Assembly: GCA_013289685.1 (NCBI GenBank)
Contig: JABCZL010000001.1
Span: 685,838 to 749,837 of the forward strand
Reading direction: 5' to 3'
Source: Acidobacteriota bacterium
GTDB lineage: Bacteria > Acidobacteriota > Terriglobia > Terriglobales > Acidobacteriaceae
DNA length: 64,000 bases
The translations under genes were made by a program, and so were the position numbers. The notes under the pieces are model-generated. The model ran no database searches. It worked only from the letters and a program-made list of their open reading frames with translations, and was not told where the DNA came from. The stretch's first letter is position 1; every line of letters begins with the position of its first letter. This document shows positions 39,183-55,095 of the stretch, piece by piece.

Positions 39183-40379
39183 TTGCGCGCGCATGGCACG
39201 ATTCTCGCCGTGTGCTTGTGGTCGTTCTACGTGTGGAACCTGGCGACACCCGGACTCCGCGACCGAAACGGAAACCTCAAAGGCACCGACTTTCTGCACC
39301 TGTATACGCTGGGTTCGCTGGCGGTGGCTCATCGAGGCACAGATTTGTATGACATGCACGCTCAGGCCGCGCTGGCCGCACAGCGCGTGCCGGAAGCGGC
39401 GGGTATTCGATATCTGCCGTTGTATCCGCCGCAGGTGTCCATCATCTTCGCGCCGCTGGCGCATCTCTCGTACGGCTGGGCGCTGATCTTGTGGTGGAGT
39501 GCAAGCGCTGCCGTCTATGCGCTCTGCTGCTACAGCGTATGGCGTGCCTGCCCGAACCTGCGCGATCACGGCGGGCTCGTCGCTCTGCTCGCCGTGGCCT
39601 ATCCCGCCTTCTTTCACCTGATCGCGTGGGGACAGACCTCGGCCGCCGCGCTCGCATGCTTCACGCTGATGTTCTTCCTGCTGCGCGATCGACGGGAGTT
39701 CCTCGCCGGCGTGGTGCTCGGCTGTCTGATCTTCAAGCCGCAGTTGGGATTGGCCGCCGCCATCTTATACCTCTGCACCGGGGCGTGGAAAACCTTGCTG
39801 GGCGCGGCTCTCTCGGCAGCGGCGCAACTCTCGGTAGGAGTTCTTTACTACGGCATGGAACCATTACGACAGTGGGTGCGCGTGCTGCGGAATGTGCAGG
39901 CTGTCTTGCCCTTGCTTGAGCCCAAGCTTTATCAGACTCACTCGCTGCGAACATTCTGGTCGATGCTGGTGCCCTGGCCTGCGTTTTCCTTCGGCCTCTA
40001 CATTGCGAGTGCTGCGCTCATACTCGGGCTCACGATCGCATGCTGGAAGCGTAGTCACGCCTTGCCACTGTCTCTTCGATATTCGGCACTGCTTTTGGCG
40101 AGCGTGCTCGTAGCGCCGCACCTCACGGTTTACGATCTGGTGATTTTGGCGCCAGCGTTTATTCTGCTGGGCGAAAGGCTGATTGGCCAGCCCATCGCGC
40201 GCTCGACTTGGTGGATGGGGACTCTTCTGTACCTGGTGTACATGCTTCCGCTGCTCGGACCTTTTACTCGATGGACGCACGTCCAGCTTTCGGTGGTTGC
40301 CATGGCGGCGACTCTGTACTTGATCTGGAGCATCTCTCGCGGGGGTGGTTCGGCTGAAGGCTCAGCGAGGAACGCGTAG
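39183..40379 (+). CDS. DUF2029/GT87-like polytopic membrane protein
   Basis: The protein is 398 residues long from a TTG at 39183; no ATG is in frame nearby, and the frame is open back into the previous gene, so the start is uncertain. It has about 10 hydrophobic helices and a first outer loop with GTDFLHLYTLGSLA and YDMHAQ, as in the DUF2029/GT87 mannosyltransferase-type proteins (PimE-like GT-C fold). HLIAWGQTSAAALA and FKPQLGLAAAI are typical of the family. It probably works with the preceding GT-C-like protein on a lipid-linked or surface glycan. Confidence 0.7.
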   Translation: MRAHGTILAVCLWSFYVWNLATPGLRDRNGNLKGTDFLHLYTLGSLAVAHRGTDLYDMHAQAALAAQRVPEAAGIRYLPLYPPQVSIIFAPLAHLSYGWALILWWSASAAVYALCCYSVWRACPNLRDHGGLVALLAVAYPAFFHLIAWGQTSAAALACFTLMFFLLRDRREFLAGVVLGCLIFKPQLGLAAAILYLCTGAWKTLLGAALSAAAQLSVGVLYYGMEPLRQWVRVLRNVQAVLPLLEPKLYQTHSLRTFWSMLVPWPAFSFGLYIASAALILGLTIACWKRSHALPLSLRYSALLLASVLVAPHLTVYDLVILAPAFILLGERLIGQPIARSTWWMGTLLYLVYMLPLLGPFTRWTHVQLSVVAMAATLYLIWSISRGGGSAEGSARNA

Positions 40380-40467: not shown

Positions 40468-41325
40468 TTATCCCTGCTTCCCGAACAGAAATGCCAGCGC
40501 GTCTGGAAACCTCCGCGCCCAAGCGGACTCATCGTGCGTGGCGCCTTCGTCGATCACCAACCTCAGGCGAGTATCATCCAAGCCCGCGCGCCGCAGAATC
40601 GCGGCGAGTTCGCGAACGTCGTCCACCACGCTCTGATCTTTATCTTTCCGCCCCGCTTCGGCAGTTCCGGTCGCCAGAAAGATTCGTTCCGGCCAGCGCT
40701 TGACTCCGTGACTCTGCCGGATTATCTGCCGGTTCGAGGCCCAGAGGGCAGGACTCTCCAGCAGCAATCGGCCAATCACTCCCGGACGCACCGCCGCGGT
40801 GTAGAGCGCAATCAAAGCCCCCAGCGACGATCCGCCCAGGCCCGTATTCTCAGGCCCGCTCGCCACGCGATAGTTGCGGGCCATGAATGGAATAACCTCT
40901 TTGAACAGAAAACTGGGATAGCGCGTTCCGTGCGCCCGCAGCGTCATGGGATGCAACGAGCGGTGCGGCATATATTCGCGGATGCGCTCCCGCGCAGCGT
41001 TGTCCATGCCCACGAAAATCATGGGCTGGATCACGCCCTCGCGGATCAACCGGTCGCCAGTCTCATCCACCTGCCACTCCACCCCGGTAAACGAGGTCGA
41101 TGCCTCAAACAAGTTCTGCCCATCGTTGAGATAGAGCACTGGGTAACGCCGGTCAGCATTTTCCGGATCGTCGTATCCCGGAGGCAGCCACACGCGCAGG
41201 AATCGCGTGTTGTGAAAAATGCGGCTTCGGAATTCGTGCAGGCGTAAATCACCGGTCGCGGACTGCGCTCGGATCACGCCGGCAGTTCCAGGGCCGTAAT
41301 TTTCACCTTGCTGGGTTTCTTCCAT
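40468..41325 (-). CDS. Fes/esterase D-like alpha/beta hydrolase
   Basis: The protein is about 285 residues from the ATG at 41325; a TTG at 41352 is also possible. Neither has a clear ribosome-binding site. RVWLPPGYD near residue 45 and YPVLYLNDGQNLF are typical of the putative-esterase family (PF00756: enterochelin esterase, antigen 85, S-formylglutathione hydrolase). The nucleophile Ser is in GLGGSSLGALIAL, and the C-terminal His is likely in GATHDESAW. No signal peptide. It is the last gene of the long minus-strand run; 40 bases separate it from the VKOR gene. Confidence 0.8.
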   Translation of the reverse strand: MEETQQGENYGPGTAGVIRAQSATGDLRLHEFRSRIFHNTRFLRVWLPPGYDDPENADRRYPVLYLNDGQNLFEASTSFTGVEWQVDETGDRLIREGVIQPMIFVGMDNAARERIREYMPHRSLHPMTLRAHGTRYPSFLFKEVIPFMARNYRVASGPENTGLGGSSLGALIALYTAAVRPGVIGRLLLESPALWASNRQIIRQSHGVKRWPERIFLATGTAEAGRKDKDQSVVDDVRELAAILRRAGLDDTRLRLVIDEGATHDESAWARRFPDALAFLFGKQG

Positions 41326-41365
41326 CAGGAAATGCGCGTTATCAGAATACAACGGAGGGCTGGCT

Positions 41366-41815
41366 TCACGCGTTAGCAGTTCTGACCTTCACTGCAATTG
41401 CGAGAAGACTGATCAGCGAAATCAGTGCCAGCGAGATCAGGCACAAGATGCACCAGGTCATCAGCTCGTAGGCTTCGATGTAAGTGAGGTAGAGCGCAAA
41501 GCCCAATCCTCCAATCGCCGCTCCCAACAGGCGGTTTGGCGTTTCCGCACGCGCCTTCCAGAATGTCGACAGGATGAACAGCACCGCGTACCCTGCCACA
41601 CCGATCGCCGCGACGGGGATGCCCTGCACGGTCGACCATTCGCTGCGGTTCACGATGTCGCAACTGAACTTCTGGCTAAAATCGCAGAACTCGGTCGCCG
41701 ACTTCGCATAATGACGCTGCAGCGAGACCGCCGACACAATCACACCCGCCAGCGCCAGAACCGCGATGACTCCAAATAAAACTCGGCTGGAACGCAGCGG
41801 CGCAGAATCCGTCAC
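41366..41815 (-). CDS. Vitamin K epoxide reductase (VKOR) family membrane protein
   Basis: The 149-residue protein has four hydrophobic helices, the loop Cys pair Cys44/Cys52 (FCDFSQKFSCD), a conserved Ser/Gly loop (STVQGIPVAAIG) and the quinone-reducing CXXC at 122-125 (WCILC). VKOR replaces DsbB in many bacteria and reoxidises a thioredoxin-like partner using quinone. The GTG start overlaps the stop of the upstream thioredoxin-like gene (GTGA), so the two are coupled, comparable to VKOR-thioredoxin fusions in cyanobacteria. Confidence 0.9.
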   Translation of the reverse strand: MTDSAPLRSSRVLFGVIAVLALAGVIVSAVSLQRHYAKSATEFCDFSQKFSCDIVNRSEWSTVQGIPVAAIGVAGYAVLFILSTFWKARAETPNRLLGAAIGGLGFALYLTYIEAYELMTWCILCLISLALISLISLLAIAVKVRTANA

Positions 41816-42234
41816 GGCAAGCTACACCCGGTCTTGTCGCTCAAGGCTTCCATGGACAACACCCCTTCCTTCGGTGTTTCCATTCCAAACTGCCAACTGG
41901 GAAACAGCTTTATGCCCGCGATTTTGCATGCCGGCACGATTTCCGATGAGCCTTTGATCGCGCACTCCTGGTAGGTCACGTATTGAAACGCTGCGCCAAA
42001 CATTTCTTTCTGCTCGATGCAATGCGGGCACCAGTACAGGCCGTACATCTTGGCCTGCTTCGTCGCCAGGCACTTCGCGAAAGCATCGTACTTGTGATTC
42101 CTGTAATACCGGCCCCCGATGAAAGCGCCCGCCAGAAGGATCAGGGCGATACCATAGAGGAGGACCTTCTTCCTTTTTCCATCATCCGCGCTGCTATCGC
42201 GCTCCTGCTGCCGTTTCCGTCGTTCTTCAGACAT
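41812..42234 (-). CDS. Membrane-anchored thioredoxin-like protein with CPHC
   Basis: The 140-residue protein has a basic cytoplasmic start, one helix at about 24-41 and an outer domain with YWCPHC (Cys69/Cys72) and a cis-Pro candidate at FPSW (Pro112). CPHC is the active-site motif of DsbA-type oxidases. Extra Cys at 55, 91, 103 and 137 may form a second disulfide. With the overlapping VKOR gene it should form an oxidative folding pair. It lies within the long minus-strand run, 43 bases after the lipid-kinase gene. Confidence 0.85.
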   Translation of the reverse strand: MSEERRKRQQERDSSADDGKRKKVLLYGIALILLAGAFIGGRYYRNHKYDAFAKCLATKQAKMYGLYWCPHCIEQKEMFGAAFQYVTYQECAIKGSSEIVPACKIAGIKLFPSWQFGMETPKEGVLSMEALSDKTGCSLP

Positions 42235-42276
42235 GACTCATCCTTATATCACGGCGCTCGTATCTACAAACGATGC

Positions 42277-43278
42277 TCAGGCCACGACGTTGAGCGCTCC
42301 GGGAAGCACATCCAATTCCTCGCAATGCAGCGTCAGCACCTCGCCATCGACCATGACGTCCACGGGCGCGTCCAGGTTGAACTCGACGCGCTGCACGCCC
42401 TTGCGCTCGGCCAGCGGGTGCTCGATGTGGGTGCCGTCATAGAGACCGGGCAGATTACAGATCAATCCCAACCGCCCAATCGGACCCCAGCGAACGTATT
42501 CCACCAGACCGTCCTCGATCTCGGCTTTAGGAGCGATCATCATGGTCCCGCCGGTAAACTTGCTGTTGTTAAAAGTCAGGAACAGGCAACGCCGGCTGTC
42601 AAAGTTGCCGTTGCCTTCGACTCGCACCGGAAAAGGCCGGCGCTTGAATCGAGAGAGCGTCAGAAAAATCGAGGTGATGTAACCCAGTTCGCCCCAGGCG
42701 CTGAAGCGCCGGGCCCGTAGCGTCGCAACGTCCGCGGCAAAGCCCATGCTCAGCAGATTGATGTAATGGATCACGCCGGTGCGATGCCGCAAACGCATCA
42801 CATCGCACGGCCGGCTCCTCTGAGCCAACAGAGATTCGATCGCATACTCGACGCCTTGGTGACTGAAGTCGCGCAGAAAAGAATTGCCCGTGCCCAGCGG
42901 TAAAAATCCTAAGGTCGGGCGCTCGCCGTCGAGAGCCTGCGGATAGAGGCCGTTCACGATTTCGTAAGAAGTGCCGTCGCCGCCAACCGCAATAAAATTT
43001 CGGACGCCATGCTCATAGGCTTCGCGCGCAATCTCCGTCGCCTGCCCCGGAGCACGAGTCTCTGCTACCTTAACGTCGATGCCGCCGGCCAGCAGCCGCT
43101 CCAGCGCCGGGCCCAGCAGTTTGCGGCTGCGCCCGCCTCCGGCCGCCGGATTCACAATTGCGAGATAGCTTTTCCCCAAGGTTCCAGGTCCATTTTTCAC
43201 AGCGGAAAGCGCAGGCGAATGCAATTTCAGTGGCCGGTCAAAATTCCACAATTTTGTCCCGCTCCACCGACTTGCCAA
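42277..43278 (-). CDS. Diacylglycerol kinase-family lipid kinase
   Basis: The family domain begins at [12 protein letters not shown] and continues with [13 protein letters not shown] (nucleotide site) and [15 protein letters not shown], as in YegS/DgkB/sphingosine-kinase relatives. The 333-residue frame starts at a TTG that overlaps the preceding ligase gene by 41 bases; a TTG at 43248 or GTG at 43200 may be the real start, since the domain begins only at about residue 37. The substrate is a lipid alcohol (diacylglycerol or ceramide-like), not known here. Its position behind acyl-activating genes suggests a lipid made by the run. Confidence 0.85.
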
Positions 43279-44947
43279 TTTCTTCCGCCAGCACCTGCCG
43301 CTTGATCTTCATCGAGGCGGTCCGGGGAAAGTCCTTCTCCCAAATCAAATATCCGCCCACGCGCTTGAAATCAGGCAGACGGCGATTTCGCGCAGAAATG
43401 TCTTCCAGCAATTTGCTGTCGAATTTCTGATTTTGCTCCAGCCGTAACGCCAGAACCAAACTCTCGCGTCCGAGTTCTTTCATCGGCCAGATGTAGTTCG
43501 CCGCAAACACCGTATACTCCTTCACCGGCAGGCCGTCGAACACGGTTTCAATATCCTCAGGGTAGATGTTCTTTCCGCCCTCAGTCACGATCATGTTCTT
43601 CTTGCGGCCAAACAGCTGCAGATGACCGCCGTTCTCAAAACGGCCCAGATCGCCCGTCAGAAGCCAGCCATCGACGATGGTCTCGAGCGTAAGTTCGGGA
43701 TCGTCCAGATAGTGCGACATCACCGTCTTGCTGCGAGCTGCCACTTCCCCCACCCCATCGGCATCCGGATTCAGAATGCGCAATTCGACTCCCGGCAACG
43801 GTTTACCAACCGTGTCGGCGCGAAACGGTTTGAGGTCGTTAAGCGTGAGCGCCGTGCCCGCCTCGGTGAGGCCGTAACCGTTCACCACCGGAATACCGAG
43901 ATCGTAGAAAAACTGCATGGTCGAAGGCTCCATGAATGCCCCGCCGGTGATCAGCGCCAGCACTTCGCCTCCAAAGCCGCGGTGCACGTTCGAAAGCAGA
44001 ATGCGGCTGAGCCTCACCTTCGGGCGGCGGCGCGTCAGCGCCCGGTTAGTGGCAATCATGGCATTCAGGTACGCCCGCTTCCACGACGGCAGTTCGTCGA
44101 ATTTTGCGCGTAGGCCGCGCTCGAGATTCTTCACGATCATCGGCACCAGCGACACGTAGGTGATGCGGTAGCGCACAAAAGCGTCGCGCACAAATTCGGG
44201 GCGCAGCGTCCGCAGATGCACCACGCAAGCTCCGCACACAAACGGTCCGATGAAGCCCACCATGAAATCAATCGCGTGATTGGTCGGAAGAATGCTCAAA
44301 TACCGCACCCCCGGCCAGAAGGGATACCACGCGGTCAGCGCGCGGCATTGTTCCAGATAATTTTCGTGGGTGAGCACACAGCCCTTGGGACGCCCTCCGG
44401 TTCCCGACGAATACACGATGCAGGCGACATCGTCCTTCTGCCGCTCAACGAAGTCAGGTGCGCCTTTGCGTTTGAAGTCTTCCCAGCGAAACGCGCCCGC
44501 CAACTCCACGCCCAGAGGCGCCTCGGTCACCAGGACAATCTTGGTTCCAATCTTCTGGAAGTCGGGCGACTCCATAATCGCTCGCCACAGGTGGTACTCG
44601 ACGACCAGCACCTTAGCCTTGGAGTGAGCAAGCAGTTGCAGGTGTTCCACCGCGTTCAGTTTATAGTCGAGCGGCACCAGCACGCCGCCGCAGTAGAAGA
44701 TCGCGTACGCCGAGATCAGCCACTTCGACTGATTCGTCATGATGATGGCGGCGCGATCGCCGGCATCGTAATCTGCGTCCTCGAGTGCGCGGGCCAGGGG
44801 CAGCGCAAGTTCCTTGAAATCCGAATAAGTCAGGCGGACTTTCTCGCGATCGCGATCCGCTTCGATCAGGCAGATTTCGGAGGAAAAGCGGTCGAGCGCA
44901 TCGCGCAGCGCAGCGCCCAGACACGTGTATTGGCGAAGATCGAGCAT
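43238..44947 (-). CDS. AMP-forming acyl-CoA/acyl-ACP ligase (first of two)
   Basis: The 569-residue adenylate-forming enzyme has the P-loop-like motif [29 protein letters not shown] and the hinge region [21 protein letters not shown], and ends with the catalytic-Lys motif RTASMKIKR. It activates a carboxylic acid, likely a fatty acid, as acyl-AMP and then thioesterifies it. The start 44947 (MLDLRQY) was chosen; the frame extends 25 residues further into a repeat-rich spacer. The acyl carrier protein gene is just upstream on the same strand, so transfer to that ACP rather than CoA is possible. Confidence 0.9.
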
Positions 44948-44952
44948 AAAGA

Positions 44953-45051
44953 ATTGCTGACGTGATTGTAAATTGTTGATTGAAGAACTAGCGGTGGCGT
45001 TGGCGTCGACGTTCCTCGGCAATCAACAATCAAAAATCAACAATCAGCAAT
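44953..45051. repeat. Nested inverted repeats in the operon between ACP and ligase genes
   Basis: ATTGCTGA (44953-44960) pairs with TCAGCAAT (45044-45051), and ATTGTTGATTG (44972-44982) pairs with CAATCAACAAT (45020-45030). AATCAACAATC also occurs twice in tandem on the right side. The AT-rich element contrasts with the GC-rich genes around it and sits in the only spacer above 100 bases within the operon. Confidence 0.65.
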
Positions 45052-45064
45052 GAGATATCCTTGT

Positions 45065-45307
45065 CTACAACCGGGCCTGAATCCTGGCGGCCAGCGTGCG
45101 GAAGTCGGTTACGCCCTGCAGTTCATAGTCCGGAAGTTCCACTCGAAAGTGATTCTCCAGCTTGGTGAGCAAATCGAGCGTCTGCAGGCTGTCGATGCCG
45201 AGCGCCTTGAAGAAGTCTTCGTCGGGGGAGAGTTTCTCGCGCGGCACTTTGAAATGCGCCGCGGCCAGCGTGAGTATCTCATCAAGCGTCTTTTCTGCGG
45301 TTTCCAT
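45065..45307 (-). CDS. Stand-alone acyl carrier protein
   Basis: The 80-residue acidic helical protein has the phosphopantetheine attachment site GIDSLQ with Ser40. It differs from the usual FAS AcpP (DSLD) and sits between an enoyl-CoA hydratase and an acyl ligase, so it probably carries a dedicated acyl chain for this operon. Spacing to the hydratase gene is 26 bases. Confidence 0.92.
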   Translation of the reverse strand: METAEKTLDEILTLAAAHFKVPREKLSPDEDFFKALGIDSLQTLDLLTKLENHFRVELPDYELQGVTDFRTLAARIQARL

Positions 45308-45332
45308 AAGCGCTTATTCTAATTCAGTTGGA

Positions 45333-46142
45333 CTACGGTAGATACGGCTGCGCCTCGGTGCTCTCTACAAATTTCTTCAATCCCGCTTGCACCGCCGGAC
45401 GCGAAAATAGCTCACAGAACATATCAATTTCCTTCCGCAACTCGTCAAGCGGAACTGGCTTGATAAATTGCTTGGCCACCACCGCGGTCTGCCGGTCGAA
45501 CTTTCCGATCTGGGCCGTGGTAGCTCGTGCAGCACGCAGCGCCTCGCCTTCCGCCACGACCTGGCTCACCAGTCCGATCTGCTGGGCCTTGGTGGCGTTG
45601 AAACTGCGGCCGGTCAAAAGCAGGTCGCGTACCACGGCATTGCCCACGTCCCGCTTCAACCGCGGGATGCCGCCAAATCCCGGGATCAGCCCCAGTCTCA
45701 ATTCTGGAAAACAAAAACGAGCCATCTTGTCGGCGATGATCAAATCGCAGACCAGGGCGAGTTCAAATCCCCCACCAAATGTGACGCCATGAACGGCGGC
45801 AATCGTGGTCAGGGACGCGGCATCGATGCGATTCAGTACGCGGTGAATGCGCTCCAGAAAATCGCGCACGCCCTGCACGGCCTTGGATGTCTCCATCGCC
45901 TGCGACTGCTCGTAAAGCTCGCGCAAATCGGCGCCCGCGCAGAAACCCGGCTTCAATTCGCTGTGAATGATGAGCGCATGCGCGTTTTTTTCGAGATTGT
46001 CGAGCGCAGACGCGAACTGTTCCAATTCGGCGAGCGAAAGCGAACCCAGTTCATTGCAGGGAGCGCGATGCAGCGCCAGTTCGATGACCCCGCCCTGAAC
46101 CTGCCACGACAGCGCTTGCCCTTTAAATTGTTTCTCGCCCAA
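45333..46142 (-). CDS. Enoyl-CoA hydratase/isomerase family protein
   Basis: The 269-residue crotonase-fold protein has both oxyanion-hole segments (FCAGADLREL and VHGVTFGGGFELA). Both Glu positions of the hydratase pair are kept: Glu in GGGFEL and Glu in FPELRLGLIPG, so dehydration/hydration of a 2-enoyl thioester is plausible; isomerase or other crotonase chemistry is also possible. It lies 25 bases after the second ligase gene and 26 bases before the ACP gene. Confidence 0.9.
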   Translation of the reverse strand: MGEKQFKGQALSWQVQGGVIELALHRAPCNELGSLSLAELEQFASALDNLEKNAHALIIHSELKPGFCAGADLRELYEQSQAMETSKAVQGVRDFLERIHRVLNRIDAASLTTIAAVHGVTFGGGFELALVCDLIIADKMARFCFPELRLGLIPGFGGIPRLKRDVGNAVVRDLLLTGRSFNATKAQQIGLVSQVVAEGEALRAARATTAQIGKFDRQTAVVAKQFIKPVPLDELRKEIDMFCELFSRPAVQAGLKKFVESTEAQPYLP

Positions 46143-46166
46143 AACTCGTCTCTTTCTGCGTCGACC

Positions 46167-47816
46167 CTAGACTGCCTGCTTCACTTGGTACAGATCCTCG
46201 ATCTCGCTCTTCATGCGCGCGGATATCAGATCGCGCTTCAACTTTCCGTTGGCCGTGAGCATCCCATTTTCGATGGAGAACGGTTCCTGCCGCAGGTGAA
46301 ACGCCCGCACCTGCTTATAGTGCGGAAGTTCCGGATTCACCGCATCGAGCGCCACCTGCACCTGTTCGCCAGTGACGCTGCCGGTGACGATCACCGAAAG
46401 ATATCCGCGGCCATTGCCCACGATAACGACCTGCTGCGCACCCGGCAACTGGCGGGCGATTTCCTCTTCGATGGCTTCAGGTGCGATCTTGTGGCCCGAG
46501 CCGAGAACGATCAGATTCTTGATGCGCCCCACGATTCGCCAGTTCCCCGACGCATCCATGTCACCCTGGTCGCCGGTATGAAACCATCCGTCGCGAACTG
46601 CGTCCGCCGTGGACTGTGGGCGGTTCCAGTATCCCGGAAAAACATTCGGCCCGCGCACCACGATCTCATCATTTTCACCGAGCCTCATCTCAATGCCCGA
46701 GATCGCCGGCCCAACGCGTCCGGGCGCGACGTTGTTCGGATCGTCCATCGTGCAGATCCCCGTCGTTTCCGTCAACCCGTAGACCTGCAACACGGGGATG
46801 CCGAGCATACTGAAATAATCCTGGGTCTCGGGAGTCAGCGGGGCCGACCCACAGATCAGCGCCTTCAAGTTCTCGCCGACCATCTTCTTGCGGATCGCGG
46901 GAAAAATTACCGCCTGCCCCAGCCAAAGCCAGATCGCATCACCCGCCTGCGCGCGCTTTTCCTTCTGCCGAATCCACGCCGACTTGGCTCGCGAGTAGAC
47001 AGCTAGCGTGACGCCGCCCTTTTGCGCGATCTGCTCGTCCACCCCGCGCCGCATGCGCTCGAGCAACTGCGGCACATTCAGAAAATAGTGCGGCGCCACC
47101 GCCGGCATGTCGTTCGGAATTTTTGTCAAGTCGGTATTCAAGGTAACCAGGCTGCCACGCAGCAGAAACGTCAGCGTCGCGATCCACGACGCACAAAAAT
47201 TAAACGGCAAATAGTGAAAGATGCGGTCCTGACCGGAGCCGCCTCCCATCAGCGAATCAAGCCGCGCCGAGGTGCAACCCAGCATGAATCCCACGTTCGC
47301 CGCGGTCAGCACCACGCCCTTGGCTTCGCCGGAAGTGCCTGAAGTGTAGATGATGGTCACGGGATCGGCGTCGCGCGCCTGCGGTCGATCCAGCGCGATT
47401 CCCTCTGCGCCGGCAAAGATTTCGTCGAAGAGAAAATACGGAGGCGCTTCGGGCCAGGCCTGCTTAATGCCATCCCGCAGCGTCGCATCGCCACAGCACA
47501 CCAGCGACGGCGTGCTGTCCTTCATCATTGCAACCAACTCGGCGGGCGCCTGGCGGAAGTACAGTGGAATGACAATCAGCCCCTCGGCCATCCCGGCCAA
47601 ATCGAGAGCCATCCATCGGATGCTGTTCGCTGCCAGCAAACCGCAGCGGTCGCCCTTTTTCAGACTCCGCGCGGCCAGGAACGTACGAGCCTTGCGGATC
47701 AACTCGAGGAACTCGGCCCCCGTCACGCCGGTTACCTGGCCGTCGCGGATCTCCTGCAGCACCGTGATGTCCGCGGCAGCCTTGAGTTGCGAAAAGATTT
47801 CTCCGATAAATGCCAT
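46167..47816 (-). CDS. AMP-forming acyl-CoA/acyl-ACP ligase (second of two)
   Basis: The 549-residue adenylate-forming enzyme has IIYTSGTSGEAKG, QVYGLTETTG, FHTGDQGDMD, GRIKNLIVLGSGHKIAPEAIE and the C-terminal NGKLKRDLI with the catalytic Lys. The start 47816 (MAFIGEIFSQ) was chosen; the frame extends 25 residues upstream into the pyruvyltransferase gene. It is clearly divergent from the other ligase of this run, so the two probably act on different acids or carriers. Confidence 0.9.
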   Translation of the reverse strand: MAFIGEIFSQLKAAADITVLQEIRDGQVTGVTGAEFLELIRKARTFLAARSLKKGDRCGLLAANSIRWMALDLAGMAEGLIVIPLYFRQAPAELVAMMKDSTPSLVCCGDATLRDGIKQAWPEAPPYFLFDEIFAGAEGIALDRPQARDADPVTIIYTSGTSGEAKGVVLTAANVGFMLGCTSARLDSLMGGGSGQDRIFHYLPFNFCASWIATLTFLLRGSLVTLNTDLTKIPNDMPAVAPHYFLNVPQLLERMRRGVDEQIAQKGGVTLAVYSRAKSAWIRQKEKRAQAGDAIWLWLGQAVIFPAIRKKMVGENLKALICGSAPLTPETQDYFSMLGIPVLQVYGLTETTGICTMDDPNNVAPGRVGPAISGIEMRLGENDEIVVRGPNVFPGYWNRPQSTADAVRDGWFHTGDQGDMDASGNWRIVGRIKNLIVLGSGHKIAPEAIEEEIARQLPGAQQVVIVGNGRGYLSVIVTGSVTGEQVQVALDAVNPELPHYKQVRAFHLRQEPFSIENGMLTANGKLKRDLISARMKSEIEDLYQVKQAV

Positions 47817-47853
47817 GGTTGTTTGTGGAGGCAGGCTTGTTTTGTTCCGCCGA

Positions 47854-49263
47854 CTAACTATATGCAGCCACCAACTGCCGCAGCGAGGCATTCATCGGCG
47901 GAAGATAATCTTCCCAACTCCATTCGCCGGTACGCGTTGGGAATTCCGGATACCGGCGCTGGACTTCCTCCTCGAATAAAATGCCCATCCGCGCCATCAC
48001 TTTCAGATTCTTCACCACCGTACGCGCGATACCGTCGGCGATGCGCTCGCCCTGTGTGGCCAGCATCTCCAGCGCCGCCAGCAACTTTTGTTCGAGATCC
48101 GGATCGTCGACATTCATCAGCAACTCCGGATGGCCGCGCTCGCGCATGAGATTGCGAATGCGTTCATCCATGGTGATGCCCGCCGAAGGCACAAGCGCCG
48201 GCATGGAAGTCACGATGCCGTGATAGCGCGACGAGGCCATCATGTGGCAGGCGCGCAGAATGCTGACCAGTTCATACATGTTGTACTGGTCCGAGGTCAA
48301 AACCGGCACTCCGCCGAGCTTCTCCGAGATGCGGTTAGCCGGACGCGCATCCAGGCGCTCAGTCGCCACCAGAATGACAAACACCTCGCGCCGTTTGCGG
48401 AAGGCATCTACCGCGTTAGCAATAGAGGTCAGGTAATGCTCATAGGCGCGGTCAGCCGCCGGTCCCGAGCTATGGAAATACGGCCCGCGATAGTGACTTT
48501 TCTTGTACGCCCCGGTCAGGCTGTGCAGCGCCGCTTTGGCCACCGAAGCCTTCACCGGCCATTCAAACGGATTAATCGGGCACACCACCAGGACGGGCGT
48601 TTTCCCGTCCCATCCCACTTGCCGCAAAACGCTCTGGCCATATTCTGCCGGGCGCGGCTCAAAGGTCCACGCAGTATCGGTGCCCAGCTCCGTCGGCACG
48701 CCCAGTTCGCGCAACACGGTGCGCGATTCTTCATTGCGTGTGATGACCAGCGAATTCTTGCAATAGCGGCCGCACATCTTGGCCAGCAGCGGATCCATGT
48801 GGCCGGCCTCGGCTCCGTATCCGACGGAGAGTTTATTCTCCACCGCAGCAATGCCGAGGGAACCAATCATCATCGTGGTCAGGGCGTTGGCGAACTTACT
48901 CTTGAACATCGAGCCTTCGCACGCGACTACTCCGTGGTGCCGCGGAACCTCATCCGACAAGAACGGTGGGAAAATGTCCGGCAGATGCACCTGCTTCGTA
49001 CCGTCGAAATATCCTTTCGAAAACTCGAAGTTCTGACTCATCACGCTGAACTCGACCCGCTCCGCGCCCAGGATGTGCCGTATCTGGCGCAGCATTTCGT
49101 CGACCCGAACATCCGAGCCCATATTGCGCGTGCCGTTGTATCCGGCAAAGAGCAGCTTCAGTTTTTCGCCTGGCTGCCAGGGATTGTGTCCGCCCAGCAT
49201 CCATCGCGCCTTCGCGCGTTCAATGTTGCCGCTGACCCACGCTTCCAGAACAAAATCCATCAT
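47854..49263 (-). CDS. Polysaccharide pyruvyltransferase-family protein
   Basis: The 469-residue protein has [15 protein letters not shown] near residue 40, the nucleotide-binding-like opening of the CsaB/WcaK/AmsJ family, and [19 protein letters not shown] near residue 345, the family's typical C-terminal motif. Members transfer pyruvyl groups to sugars, or have related GT-B-like functions. The ATG overlaps the stop of the upstream reductase gene (ATGA). Finding it inside a fatty-acyl gene run is unusual and hints at a glycosylated or pyruvylated lipid product. Confidence 0.8.
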
Positions 49264-50393
49264 GCGGCAGTTCCTCCTGCAGCCGCGGGCCAGGGCTTGT
49301 ACTGATACTCAAAATCATTCTCGCGGCTGAACTTCAGCAGGGGAAAGCTGTACTGCGAAAACGGCACTGGCTTTTTTCCCAACTCAGACGTGACCCGGGT
49401 GTTGTCGAACACCGTGTTCCACACCAGATACGGCATGAATACCTTCAACAATGACGCACCCTTGGCCATCGAACCCTTCCGATTCGACAGGAAATTGACC
49501 GAACCTGTAAAGGGCTTCTCAGCGAATGGAAGAAATACAGGGCCACGCTTTTGTTGTGCGGCAGCAAGCGCGGTCGTCAACTCGCGGAACGTCTGTGACC
49601 CGATCCCCGACGAAAGATGATACGTTTCGAATTGCGGCTGCTCTTTCTGGTGCAAGGTCGCAATCGCGTCCGCCACAAAATCCACATTCACGATGTCAAT
49701 CTTGTCGTTGGGACGAAACGGCAATACCGGCAGTCCAGCCAGAAAAACGAAGGCCTTGACCATATCGAACTGGGTGGTTTCCGCATGCCGGCTGTCTCCC
49801 AGCACAATGCTGGGGCGGAAGACCGTCCTCGGAGTATCCGGCAGCAGCACGCGCGTCATGTGCTCACAAAATTTCTTGGTGCGCGCGTAGGGATCGTAAT
49901 CGGACCGGTCCCACCCGATCGAGCGATCTTCGGTGACCACTTCGTTACTGCGCTTGCCCGCTACCGCGACGGTGCTGACTTCGCTGAAACGCCGCAGGCC
50001 GTGATAGTGCTCCGCCTGTCGCGCCAGAGTAAGCACTTCGAGCGTGCCGCGCAGATTCACGTTGAGGCAACTCTTCTCCGACTTGCGATTCAGCGACGCC
50101 GCGCAATGAATCACCGAATCCGTGGTGTGCACCAGCCGGTCGTATTCGTCGCGATTCAAACCGAAGGCAGGAGAAGTCAGGTCTCCGCAAAAAATCCGCA
50201 CCTTCGTCTGCAGGAACTCGAAGAAGCGCGGAAAATCCAGGTGCAACTGCAGCGCGCGCCACAGCCGCAACTGCGCTTCCTGCGGATCGCGCGCCCGCAC
50301 CAGCACGTTCAAGGCGGCGCCGTGCCCTTCCAGCAGATTGGCAGCCACGTGCGCGCCGATGTATCCCGTCGACCCGGTCAGGAATATCGCCAC
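49260..50393 (-). CDS. Thioester-reductase-like extended SDR
   Basis: The 377-residue protein has the NAD(P) motif TGSTGYIG (residues 6-13) and the catalytic YARTK (Tyr169, Lys173) and belongs to the NAD-binding_4/thioester reductase group (carboxylic acid reductase R-domain, fatty acyl-CoA reductase). No carrier-protein domain is attached; the ACP is encoded separately in the run. It may release an acyl thioester as aldehyde or alcohol. It overlaps the upstream reductase gene by 16 bases and the downstream pyruvyltransferase gene by 4. Confidence 0.85.
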
Positions 50394-52753
50394 GTGGCTC
50401 CATCGGTCCCGGTCTTCACGGCATCTCCGTTAGCGGGCGCAAGTTGAAAGGTGCGTGGCGGCCGCGCTTCCAGAGGCCGCCCTTCAATCAAGGGATACGT
50501 CCAGCGGCGCAAGGCCGGGATGTGAATATTGATCCAGTACTCCCACCAATCCAGCGAGCGCGTGTCGTAGCCAAAAATGCCCTGCTCTGCGGGCACGAGC
50601 GCGTAGGAAAGCTTCTCGATATTCTCCGCCGCGAAATCGTGTTCATTCAGCAGGATGAAAGGCTCGAACAGCTCAATGAGTTTTTCCAGGCGCTCCAGAT
50701 TCCGCTCGGCCTTCACCAGCGGCGCCTTCTTCAGCGGCAGCGGCGACATGATGCGTTGAATGGACTTCACAATCGCCTTCTGCGCCGGCGCCGACATGCG
50801 GTTGTACCGTGTCTTCGAAACCGGAATCGCATCGAACCGCAGCCGCAGCCACGATTCCAGCCCTTCCTGCGCGCGATAGTGCTTGCGGTGCGCCAGAGAC
50901 GTCAACTCGATCGACCGGCCCATGTCGCACGGGTTGGTCACCGAAGTTGCGAGCTGGTAGAGCGGATCGTGTCTGCGCTCCATGACCGCGGCGGCAATCA
51001 GAGTCATCCCGGCACAAACCGCGTCCACCGGAATAATGTCGAGCCGCTTGCTTTCGTTGGTGGGCAACTGCCGGAAATATGTGCCCAGCAGATACGACAG
51101 CGACGCCGAAGTATTGATGCCCTCATTCCACCCCAGAAATGGTTTGGAGACCGAGGTTTCCACAATCGCCGGACGCACCACAGCAACCGGCAATCCAGCA
51201 CCGTGTTTCGCGATCAGTGACTCGGCCAGGCTCTTAGTCAGCGTGTAGGTATTTGGCCAGCCCAGTTCCTTGGCGCGCCGCGTTCCCGCCTCGGTGAGAT
51301 AGGTCTTCAACCAGCGGACGCGGTTCTTGCGGATCTGGTTCTCGAGCGCTGCGCCCTGCAGATTCTTCGCCGCATGTTCCTTGGCCTGGGCCTGCATCCG
51401 CAGGCCTGATGTGACCTCGTCACTCTCCGCCTGCGCTTCGGCCTGCTTCACCAATTCCTGCAGCGAGCGCCATTCCTGCTCGGCATCGAAATCGGCCAAC
51501 CCACGCGGACTGTAGTTGGGCGTCAGTTTTTCGCCGACACGCCCATCCTGCTCTCCGGCCACATAACAGGTGGAGAGATGCAGAAGCCCGGCGTGATCGG
51601 CCGCCTTTACAAATTCGAGGATATTGACTGCAGCATCTGTATTCGTCGTGAGGGCATCACGCAGGTCGGGATTAAAATCCGTCAAGCCCGAACTGTTGAT
51701 AACGAGATCGAGGTTGTTCTGCAGGCGGAGCGCCGTCTCAGCGCTCAGGCCGAGCCCCGGCTCGGTGACGTCCCCTTCGACGACTTCGATCTTGTCGCGC
51801 AGAAAACTGAGGAACCGATCTCCGTGGCGCTTAAACAGCGGATCGAACACGGGCGAATCTTCCACCATCTTCTCGAAGCGGCGGTCCGCCGGATTCGACT
51901 TCTGCCGGCGGATCAGCAGGTAGATCCGCTTCACGTCGGGCAAATCCAGAAGCGTGTTCGCCAGCCAGACTTTGCCGATGAACCCCGTCACGCCGATGAG
52001 CATCACATGCTTTCCCGAGAATGCCCGGCGAACGGAAAATTCCGGAGCCTGCCTCTGACCCTCAAAGTGGACGATGGGCCGCGTTGGCGCCACCGGCCGC
52101 CGCTCCGCAGGAACAACGGCCGCCCGCAGCTCTTCTACGGAAATGTCCAACTGCCGCGCCAAAGTCTTTGGAGCCCGGCGCCCGTCCGGATTCTCCTCCC
52201 GAATGCGCGCAAACGCCCCGCGCGGCCGGATGATCGGCTCCATCAACCTGCCAGTCGCGGTGCCATCGCGAAAATCCAGGCGGTTGGCCACAATCCGCTT
52301 GACGCCCAAGTGCTGCGCCAGCGGGCGCATTACGTGCTCCAATCCCTGGCTGACGAGCACGACATCCGCGCCGGCCTGCACCAGCTCCAGCACCTTGCGG
52401 ACGCCTCGCTCTTTCAGCCGCGGCTTCAACTTGTATAGAAAGAATTCCTCGCCCAGCAGGTCAAGGCGGTCGCGGGTCACCCCTCGCAGCACGGTATGCA
52501 CCGCCCGGGTGGCAAACTTCCGGTTCGTGGAATAAAGGAACGGCCGCAGCAGTGCCATCAGGAAGATCAGCCCGCGCCGCCGGAACCGCTCGGAGAACGT
52601 TTGCGCGTTCCAGGTAAAGAACGCCACTGGCCGGACGACGGTCAGGTCGAGCAGGCTCCCCTCAACCCGCCAGTAGACGGTAGGGGCCGCACTGGAATTG
52701 TGGTTTGTCGGTTCCAAAATTGCTGTTTTGTCCCTCTTACGGGCTTCCGGCAC
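50378..52753 (-). CDS. Fusion of a degenerate HAD-like domain with a fatty acyl-CoA reductase
   Basis: The 791-residue protein has a GTG start. Residues 26-175 look like a HAD-IB (phosphoserine phosphatase-like) domain: motif I is WRVEGSLLD instead of DxDGT, so the Asp nucleophile is missing; motif II VVLVSQG and ATGRLMEP remain, and the later K/DD motifs are absent. Residues 247-520 are a NAD-binding_4 reductase with GVTGFIGK (254-261), STCYVAG and YTLTK (Tyr503, Lys507). The C-terminal 250 residues resemble the fatty acyl-CoA reductase tail. It likely makes fatty aldehyde or alcohol. It is the first gene of the run; TACAAT lies 21 bases upstream. Confidence 0.85.
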
Positions 52754-52926: not shown

Positions 52927-54228
52927 TCAATCGAGCACGGTCGCCCTTTCGCGGGCTGGCCGGCGACCCACGATCAATGCCATTGTGCCGCTGATGGCGA
53001 GAGTCGCGCCAATCGCCAGCAACCCTCCGCCAAACCCGCCATTCGACGTGCGAAAGAACCCGATGATATCCGAACCGAAGTATCCTCCCAGATTGGCCAG
53101 CGAGTTAATCACCGCGATTCCGGCGGCCGCCGGAAGGCCGGCCATGCGCGTGGTGGCCATCGCCCAGAACGGTCCCACCATAGCCTCCGCCCCGGCCATT
53201 CCAAGTCCAACGCCAGCAATCACCAGCGCTGGAGCCGTTCCGTAGGCGGCAGCGACCAAAGCCACGGCTGCGCAGAACGCCGGAACGGCCGTGTGCCAGC
53301 GCCGCTCTCCGCTGCGATCCGAACTCATCCCGACCAGCACCATGGCGATGGTCGCCACTACGAAGGGCAGCACGGCCACCAGGCTCGTCTCAAAATTACC
53401 CAGCCCCGAAAGCGATTGGATCAGGCTCGGCAGCCAGAACGTGACCCCGTACATGGTCGTAGATACTCCAAAGTAAACCAGCGAAAGCATCCAGATTCGC
53501 GGGGCAATCAGAACCTGCCAGAAGCTGCCCTGTTGAAGACTCGACTCCGCCTGTTTTTCCACGGCTAATTTGTCCAGCAGCCAGGCGCGCTCCTCGCCCT
53601 TCAACCACGCAGCCTCCTCTGGACGATCCGAAAGCACCCGCAGAACGATCCCTCCCAGCAGGATCGCCGGAACGCCCTCCATGAGGAACATCCATTGCCA
53701 TCCCGAAAGCCCTTTGCCGGTCAGGCCCAGCAACGCCCCCGAGAGCGGGCTGCCGACCATGCCCGCGAGCGGGTTCGCGGTCATGAACCAGGCCACGGCG
53801 CGAGCCCGGGCGCGCGCCGGGAACCAACGCTTCATATAAAGAATCATGCCCGGAAAGAATCCCGCCTCGGCGGCGCCGAGCAGGAATCGCAAGGCATAAA
53901 AGCTGATGGGCCCACGGATGAATATCATCAGGCAGGAAATCACTCCCCAAGTCGCCATCAGGCCGGCAATCCAGCGCCGGACGCCAAATTTTTCCAACAC
54001 CAGATTGCTGGGAAGCTGAAAGAAAAAGTAGCCCGCAAAGAACATCCCTTGGGCGCGCCCGATGACGCGGTCGCTCAAACCAAGCTGCCCGCGCATCTGC
54101 AATACGGCGAAGCTCACGTTGATGCGGTCGAGGTAAGCAACAATGTAGAGCAGGAAGAGAAACGGCATCAGCCGCCACATGAGCCGGGAAACCACAGCGG
54201 ATTCAAGGCGGTCGGGGACGGTTTCCAA
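52927..54228 (-). CDS. MFS transporter, anion:cation symporter (ACS) type
   Basis: The 433-residue protein has 12 predicted helices. Helix 1 contains FLFLLYIVAYLDRINVSFA, and GAAEAGFFPGMILYMKRWFP is the ACS-family signature between helices 4 and 5. Members import organic acids such as galactonate, tartrate, phthalate or gluconate. The gluconokinase gene lies directly upstream on the same strand with a 47-base gap, so sugar-acid uptake is the likely task. Confidence 0.88.
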   Translation of the reverse strand: METVPDRLESAVVSRLMWRLMPFLFLLYIVAYLDRINVSFAVLQMRGQLGLSDRVIGRAQGMFFAGYFFFQLPSNLVLEKFGVRRWIAGLMATWGVISCLMIFIRGPISFYALRFLLGAAEAGFFPGMILYMKRWFPARARARAVAWFMTANPLAGMVGSPLSGALLGLTGKGLSGWQWMFLMEGVPAILLGGIVLRVLSDRPEEAAWLKGEERAWLLDKLAVEKQAESSLQQGSFWQVLIAPRIWMLSLVYFGVSTTMYGVTFWLPSLIQSLSGLGNFETSLVAVLPFVVATIAMVLVGMSSDRSGERRWHTAVPAFCAAVALVAAAYGTAPALVIAGVGLGMAGAEAMVGPFWAMATTRMAGLPAAAGIAVINSLANLGGYFGSDIIGFFRTSNGGFGGGLLAIGATLAISGTMALIVGRRPARERATVLD

Positions 54229-54275
54229 GAGTAGGTTCCAGTGTTCGGGTCGAGCCGTTCTGTGGTGCGAGGATT

Positions 54276-54761
54276 CTACGCTAAGGCAAGTTTTTTTCGA
54301 ATCTCGGCCACAATCTGCTGCGGGGTCGAGGAGATTTCAACCGTCACCGCTGCCTCCGGCTCTTCGAGATCGGCGAACTGGCTGGCCAGAATCTGCTCGC
54401 CGGCAAAGTGCCCGTGCCGCGAGCGCAGCCGCTCGGCGATCAGGTCCGCACTTCCCTTCAGGTACACAAACCGGACCTCCGGCCCGACACCCAGTTCCTG
54501 CCTGTAGCTGCGCTTCAGGGCTGAGCAGGCCAGCGCAACATTGCGTTTTTCAGCAATCCACTTGACGATCGCTGCTCGCAGCCGCGCCAGCCAGGGCTCC
54601 CGATCCTCGTCGTTGAGTGCGATGCCCTGCCGAATCTTTTCTACGTTCGCCGGCGGATGAAAGTCGTCCGCATCGGCGAATTCCCAACCAGACTGCTCGG
54701 CCAGCAGGCGCCCGATGGTCGTCTTGCCCGCGCCGACGACTCCCATCACGATAACAACCAT
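54276..54761 (-). CDS. gntK: Gluconokinase
   Basis: The 161-residue kinase has Walker A GVVGAGKTT at residues 7-15, DADDFHPPANVEKI, and ACSALKRSYRQEL, characteristic of thermoresistant/GntK-type gluconokinases. It phosphorylates gluconate to 6-phosphogluconate. The start 54761 was chosen at the conserved MVVIVMG; the frame extends 68 residues further into palindromic repeat sequence. It forms a small operon with the downstream MFS gene. Confidence 0.93.
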   Translation of the reverse strand: MVVIVMGVVGAGKTTIGRLLAEQSGWEFADADDFHPPANVEKIRQGIALNDEDREPWLARLRAAIVKWIAEKRNVALACSALKRSYRQELGVGPEVRFVYLKGSADLIAERLRSRHGHFAGEQILASQFADLEEPEAAVTVEISSTPQQIVAEIRKKLALA

Positions 54762-55095
54762 GGCTGAGAATTGTACGGTAGCGCCGGCATCTTGCCGGCT
54801 GTCGCGGGGGCATCCTGCCCGCGCGTGTTGGGTGGCGAGTGGCCGCCACGACAGCCGCTTCAGCCCTGTGTATTGAAAGGGCGCGGCTTCAAGCCGCGCC
54901 GTAAGTCGAATTGCATCAATCGCCGCTTTACAGTTTGCTGAAAAACTCGGGTTTGTCAGTCCCACCGTGGAAGAGCGGCCCTTTAGGACCGCGTAAGCCG
55001 TTGAAAATTAATCTGGGCTTCAGCCCTCGTCGTCGTTTTTTTTCGACCAACTGAGTTTTTCAACATAACTGTTTAGCCGCTGAGGTCGCAATGCG
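54762..55095. repeat. Palindrome-rich intergenic region with a MITE-like element
   Basis: This gap holds a series of palindromes: CGCCGGC/GCCGGC near 54783-54800, a GGGGGCA/TGCCC unit, and GGCGCGGCTT C AAGCCGCGCC (54880-54900). Then TGAAAAACTC (54939-54948) and GAGTTTTTCA (55053-55062) bracket about 124 bases like terminal inverted repeats of a small MITE-type element, inside which GCGGCCC/GGACCGC pairs. There is no open reading frame of note. Confidence 0.65.

Follow-up and report, generated by a model that had tools for sequence, protein, structure and literature searches.

A conserved acidobacterial locus related to elb ether-lipid operons may build a fatty-alcohol-based polar lipid

In Myxococcus xanthus, ether lipids depend on the elb genes. 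As presented in the accessible text of a 2022 review (PMC9131029), these comprise elbA (epimerase-like), elbB (a HAD protein), elbC (function unknown), elbD (a fusion of fatty acyl reductase (FAR), ligase, acyl carrier protein (ACP) and acyltransferase) and elbE (epimerase-like); elbD, and possibly elbE, are important for ether lipids, and a lipid kinase is not among the five genes as reviewed there. The accessible parts of PMC11868695 and PMC10087280 report elb in only some subdivision 4 Acidobacteria genomes, and report Solibacter usitatus without ElbD. PlsA/Ger is likewise a bacterial path to ether lipids, with fully formed ester lipids as its proposed substrates (PMC13274423, accessible part). 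Here we describe a run of eleven open reading frames (ORFs), A to K, in a 64,000-nucleotide stretch (hereafter the window) of contig JABCZL010000001.1 from an Acidobacteriota bacterium, whose assembly totals 6.85 Mb in 48 contigs and is 98.9% complete. Its first eight genes, A to H, appear to form a differently built relative of the elb operon, not elb itself.

All eleven ORFs predicted by the initial annotation were found on the minus strand at 40468..52753. Measured on the longest ORFs, the junctions from A to K are -16, -4, -38, 24, 25, 42, -41, 42, -4 and 13 bases. These five overlaps and a largest gap of 42 agree with the at least four overlaps and small gaps described earlier. The C/D and G/H overlaps could disappear with later starts, because conservation is poor over the N-terminal ~25 residues of D and ~37 of H.

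Relatives were collected by scanning the genome collection with A, and the best 80 of 126 were kept; the titles of these 80 are acidobacterial or "Bacterium HR10", and none names a cultured isolate. These relatives show that the arrangement is no coincidence. A, B, C and D follow one another in all 54 loci that have at least 5.2 kb after A. The order and orientation of A to H are kept in 45 of the 51 relatives with at least 9 kb after A, and the 4-base B/C overlap is repeated at 60 of the 69 junctions measured. Among the exceptions, part of the block is inverted in L049 and L052, while in L077 and L079 H-G-F diverge from A-B-C-D and E was not found. L062 has only A-D at the locus, with H about 40 kb away on the same contig, and L080 has A-E only. 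Beyond H, conservation falls: I-J follow A-H in 32/51 relatives and I-J-K in 29/51. Hence the conserved unit is the eight genes A-H (42277-52753), and I-K is a lineage-specific tail. This tail, I-J with or without K, is found where A shares at least 69% identity with that of the window; in L107, a K homologue comes after H and I-J are missing. The gene order, whose lack of conservation in relatives would have refuted the initial annotation, is thus conserved, and the proposal of a single unit stands for A-H and not for the eleven genes. The redox pair and the esterase that the initial annotation had counted in the set are lineage-specific neighbours outside the core.

The link to elb comes first from protein A (50378..52753, 791 aa; Pfam NAD_binding_4, HAD and Sterile), in which an ElbB-like HAD domain is fused to an ElbD-like FAR. 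Motif I of the HAD domain reads WRVEGSLL, with R29 and E31 replacing both catalytic aspartates in 74/74 rows, and none of the seven A rows aligned shows motif III or IV. In the same alignment, 15 stand-alone HADs located near FAR genes retain the nucleophile aspartate as well as motifs III and IV. The HAD domain of A therefore seems inactive. Profile links place it closest to elb-linked HADs. The FAR part matches an alcohol-forming bacterial fatty acyl-CoA reductase (PDB 7eoz, E 5e-39), from which A differs by its extra HAD domain and its block of partner genes. The predicted model of A is poor, with a mean predicted local distance difference test score (pLDDT) of 64.

With the profile of A (E <= 1e-8, two candidates scored per genome), matches were obtained in 98 of 396 genomes sampled across the phylum, 12 of them with a block-type A. 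Hand counts made from the A-profile matches listed give a FAR within a frame of 1442-1573 aa in 43/396 genomes (six of the 43 frames contain stop codons), and place 29 of the 34 HAD-only matches listed on the contig of the FAR, within about 10 kb. In twenty such elb/FAR loci that were read, a HAD gene is present in 16, and many contain a LarA-like gene of ~530 aa (three scanned) and an epimerase-like gene (four scanned). The long protein of L147, the one such protein scanned in full, is a FAR-ligase-carrier-acyltransferase. L154 and L156 have a stand-alone FAR gene, in the order HAD, LarA-like, FAR, epimerase, kinase. Seven of the twenty loci (L145, L147, L153, L154, L156, L160 and L161) have a YegS-type lipid kinase close to their FAR/ElbD-type gene. 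The gene at the elbC position is LarA-like, with Lar_N in 3/3 scanned (L147:9246-10844, L145:5505-7100, L156:7893-9644); that of L147 scores 809 bits against a cut-off of 740 for LarAH14/15/16, a nickel-pincer nucleotide (NPN)-dependent hydroxyacid isomerase.

In a tree of acidobacterial FARs only, the A FARs form one clade (100) that adjoins 14 HAD-linked FARs (SH-aLRT 85). Of two further groups that fall outside, one (L160, L161) likewise has a neighbouring HAD gene. A thus joins ElbB-like and ElbD-FAR-like parts, which elb loci encode as distinct genes. The elb loci of M. xanthus and of Acidobacteriota have in common with the block a HAD protein, a FAR, an acyl ligase and a carrier protein. 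However, elb has a fused FAR-ligase-ACP-acyltransferase, whereas the block encodes A, D/G and F in individual ORFs. In addition, the HAD domain of the block is fused to the FAR and has lost its catalytic residues, and C, E and a second ligase are added. We see in the block a relative of elb and not a copy, because the LarA-like family is over its cut-off in 0/13 carriers, no acyltransferase domain was found and neither C nor E has a homologue in the twenty elb/FAR loci (profile E <= 1e-4).

Taken together, A-H would be an elb-related biosynthetic locus that most likely makes an alkyl-ether lipid or another polar lipid based on a fatty alcohol, a reading that we hold with about even confidence. 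Such a fatty-alcohol-derived product, likeliest an ether, is suggested by the FAR lineage, the ligases, the ACP and the lipid kinase. The initial annotation had recognized a single unit, aimed at an unusual lipid, in which acyl activation and reduction come together with an ACP and a lipid kinase; this description fits the conserved core. Its guess of an ether gains strength because the HAD-FAR of A is linked to elb loci, the product itself being our inference. Its statement that no described system has this composition has to be amended, since elb is a described relative; still, a literature search that lacked most subscription papers returned no described system with this gene combination.

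The block is widespread in its genus and rare in its phylum. The profile of C (E <= 1e-60, four candidates scored per genome) matches 13 of the 396 phylum genomes; within the window's genus it matches 40 of 45, including 19 of the 20 high-quality genomes. In a B+C tree built from 31 of the 80 loci plus the window, Terriglobales-like rows cluster and several weak branches lie elsewhere. The carriers are several groups of mostly uncultured Acidobacteriota with the same gene order. The block looks like a trait retained in few lineages, and it may have been transferred between lineages. In G389 no A was found and the contig stops after B. Elsewhere, a distant C paralogue (391 bits; L102:8485-10074, genome G062) sits beside a patatin-like gene, as labelled by eye, with no other block gene alongside. 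An ElbD-type FAR occurs in 0/13 carrier genomes, all candidates being scored. Mutual exclusion of the block and the ElbD-type FAR was considered and rejected, 0/13 against 43/396 being often expected by chance.

The remaining core proteins extend the set of acyl-processing enzymes, and the residues that we take to be catalytic are kept in their alignments. In the FAR part of A, Y503 and K507 are conserved in 74/74 rows. B (49260..50393, 377 aa; Pfam NAD_binding_4, and 122 bits with TIGR01746, under its cut-off of 213) is a thioester-reductase-type short-chain dehydrogenase/reductase (SDR) with Y169 and K173 kept in 68/68 rows. D (46167..47891, 574 aa in the longest ORF; AMP-binding PF00501 and PF23562) is a first AMP-forming acyl ligase, the conserved portion of which begins near residue 26, at about 47816; its K550 is kept in 52/52 rows. 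E (45333..46142, 269 aa, ECH_1 PF00378) is a crotonase/enoyl-thioester hydratase in which E127 and E147, presumably the two catalytic glutamates of crotonases, are kept in 51/51 rows. F (45065..45307, 80 aa, PP-binding PF00550) is an ACP with S40 in 54/54 rows. G (43238..45022, 594 aa in the longest ORF, AMP-binding PF00501) is a second AMP-forming acyl ligase, with K572 in 51/51 rows; these include at least two D proteins assigned to G in error (L062, L080). Finally, H (42277..43278, 333 aa in the longest ORF; DAGK_cat PF00781, YegS_C PF19279, TIGR00147 over its cut-off) is a YegS-type lipid kinase with GGDGT kept in 44/44 rows.

From these families we infer the substrates, the order of steps, the chemistry and the product as follows. 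G would load a fatty acid onto F (or CoA), and A, perhaps with B, would reduce the resulting thioester, giving a fatty aldehyde or alcohol. A C/D/E branch, made of a phosphoenolpyruvate (PEP)-transferase family protein, the second ligase and the hydratase, could couple the alcohol to a small polar unit. H would phosphorylate the alkyl lipid and allow its entry into phospholipid synthesis. With two NAD_binding_4 reductases and two ligases, the block could instead yield free fatty aldehydes, alcohols, wax esters or hydrocarbons, but the lipid kinase and the PEP-transferase-family protein of the core do not fit such products. A wax ester synthase (WS/DGAT) had no match in the host genome, a result that is no proof of absence given that the control matched 0/14 genomes. 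We consider that a non-polar product has little chance of being the right one.

C (47854..49263, 469 aa) belongs to the polysaccharide pyruvyl transferase family (PS_pyruv_trans PF04230, 32.1 bits against a cut-off of 25.3), whose studied members attach ketal pyruvate to saccharides. It seems to keep the arginine/histidine spacing found at the PEP site of the ketal-pyruvyl transferases CsaB and Pvg1p: R176, R346, H348 and R368 are invariant in 61/61 rows and were paired by spacing, with no CsaB alignment, to CsaB R148, R306, H308 and K328. By this pairing, an arginine takes the place of the lysine; a CsaB K328R variant is still active. Unlike CsaB, C scores 60 bits with the CsaB equivalog TIGR03609, far under the cut-off of 213, and sits among acyl-lipid genes. 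PDB sequence searches with C and with the C alignment gave no match. Its predicted model (pLDDT 88) matches GT-B structures, and its GT-B fold would lie near sugar-nucleotide enzymes and PimA, a lipid glycosyltransferase; known pyruvyl transferases are absent among the 50 fold matches listed, which is no evidence against kinship.

Both the family and the predicted fold of C would suit a glycolipid, in which C would put ketal pyruvate or a sugar on a lipid-linked saccharide, while the lipid part, a modified fatty alcohol or aldehyde, would come from the reductases and ligases. A GT87 gene is found just downstream (39183-40379), and 11 of the 80 loci have a homologue following the block, but the gene itself is on the opposite strand and outside the core. 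Moreover, no sugar-nucleotide enzyme lies inside A-H, and D and E get no role. A glycolipid seems to us rather unlikely.

A bolder proposal gives each core gene one step. All eight enzymes would build an alkyl glycerol ether with a backbone derived from PEP and not from glycerol phosphate or dihydroxyacetone phosphate (DHAP). G and F would activate the fatty acid and A would make the alcohol, onto which C would move the enolpyruvyl group of PEP. D would then convert the carboxyl to a thioester, E would hydrate the 2-alkoxyacryloyl thioester to a 2-O-alkyl-glyceroyl thioester, B would reduce the latter to 2-O-alkylglycerol, and H would phosphorylate it to 2-O-alkylglycerol phosphate. Crotonases place a hydroxyl on the beta carbon of enoyl thioesters; the carbon hydroxylated by E would here be the PEP-derived CH2. 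A search for PEP-derived alkyl glycerols, in a literature that lacked most subscription papers, found nothing relevant. We consider this scheme quite improbable.

Several observations weigh against an elb-related locus for an ether or other fatty-alcohol-based polar lipid. The FAR tree that links A to elb-type reductases is restricted to acidobacterial sequences, with the moderate support given above. In the kinase tree, one row of which is a fragment, H and the kinases of the elb loci are not one clade. LarAH14/15/16 exceeds its cut-off in 4/5 elb/FAR genomes and in 0/13 carrier genomes, where weak matches under the cut-off are seen in 5/13. No acyltransferase domain was detected in ten scanned block proteins, nor in K. 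The B profile matches elbE-like proteins weakly, over ~30 residues, so that B is not clearly ElbE; as an extended SDR, it is nearer to thioester reductases. The identification of G with the ligase of ElbD was tried and not retained, the ligase tree being not decisive, with long branches and mislabelled rows (L062, L080). The host genome also encodes two fusions of AMP-ligase, carrier and acyltransferase (951 and 892 aa; L113:1321-4176 and L114:1491-4169), which resemble ElbD minus the FAR. Furthermore, its ether lipids could arise from a PlsA/Ger-like gene set alone, and FabH-like genes found inside the blocks of three relatives are left unexplained; both are considered below.

The FabH-like (ketoacyl synthase III) genes lie between E and F (L075:9834-10823, L103:5640-6629, L105:12717-13718); the L103 protein, the sole one of the three scanned against families, scores 413 bits against a cut-off of 249. 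Absence of a ketosynthase, by which the initial annotation had set the run apart from polyketide synthase (PKS) and fatty acid synthase (FAS) clusters, is true of the eleven proteins of the window and does not extend to these three loci. These genes would be at home in a carrier-protein pathway of the nonribosomal peptide synthetase (NRPS)/PKS kind that makes a small secreted acyl-derived metabolite, with B as reductive release enzyme. In the PDB, the best relatives of B come from NRPS/PKS reductase domains and carboxylic acid reductases. However, the window block has no ketosynthase, the lipid kinase is a poor fit, and presence in 40/45 genus genomes better suits a structural lipid. A secreted metabolite is, in our view, a slim prospect.

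The PlsA/Ger-like set lies on another contig of the host genome (C5; L112:5080-10266), where three genes stand side by side, encoding a DUF2229 protein, a double BcrAD_BadFG ATPase and a product with no Pfam match. These genes look like a PlsA/Ger-like triplet, resembling a split PlsA/Ger system. According to the accessible part of PMC13274423, PlsA-like homologues with two PF01869 domains are Ger candidates, and Ger and PlsA cannot be separated by sequence alone, which limits the argument drawn from this triplet. Its families are unrelated to those of the block, from which BadF-type ATPase and DUF2229 domains are absent. If the triplet makes the ether lipids, the block would serve another purpose, such as fatty acid salvage or turnover. 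On the other hand, a core that has two reductases but neither a dehydrogenase nor a thiolase speaks for reduction and against breakdown. We give this division of labour a low probability. Overall, the locus is real and conserved, and an ether or fatty-alcohol lipid as its product is plausible.

Around the core, the tail comprises I (41812..42234, 140 aa), thioredoxin-like with a CPHC motif seen by eye and no family match in Pfam or NCBIfam; J (41366..41815), a VKOR-family protein (PF07884); and K (40468..41352), a putative esterase (Esterase PF00756). Upstream of A, window positions 52927-54965 hold two genes labelled by eye, one for a major facilitator superfamily (MFS)-like transporter and one gluconate-kinase-like; many of the closest loci have homologues ahead of A.

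The route to ether lipids in aerobic Acidobacteria is an open question, and temperature and pH proxies based on branched glycerol dialkyl glycerol tetraethers (brGDGTs) rest on such lipids (PMC10087280, accessible part). The block connects a PEP-transferase-family protein with lipid genes. As a nearly genus-wide locus with the elb reductase lineage and no fused enzyme, it is a candidate alternative path to fatty-alcohol-based lipids.

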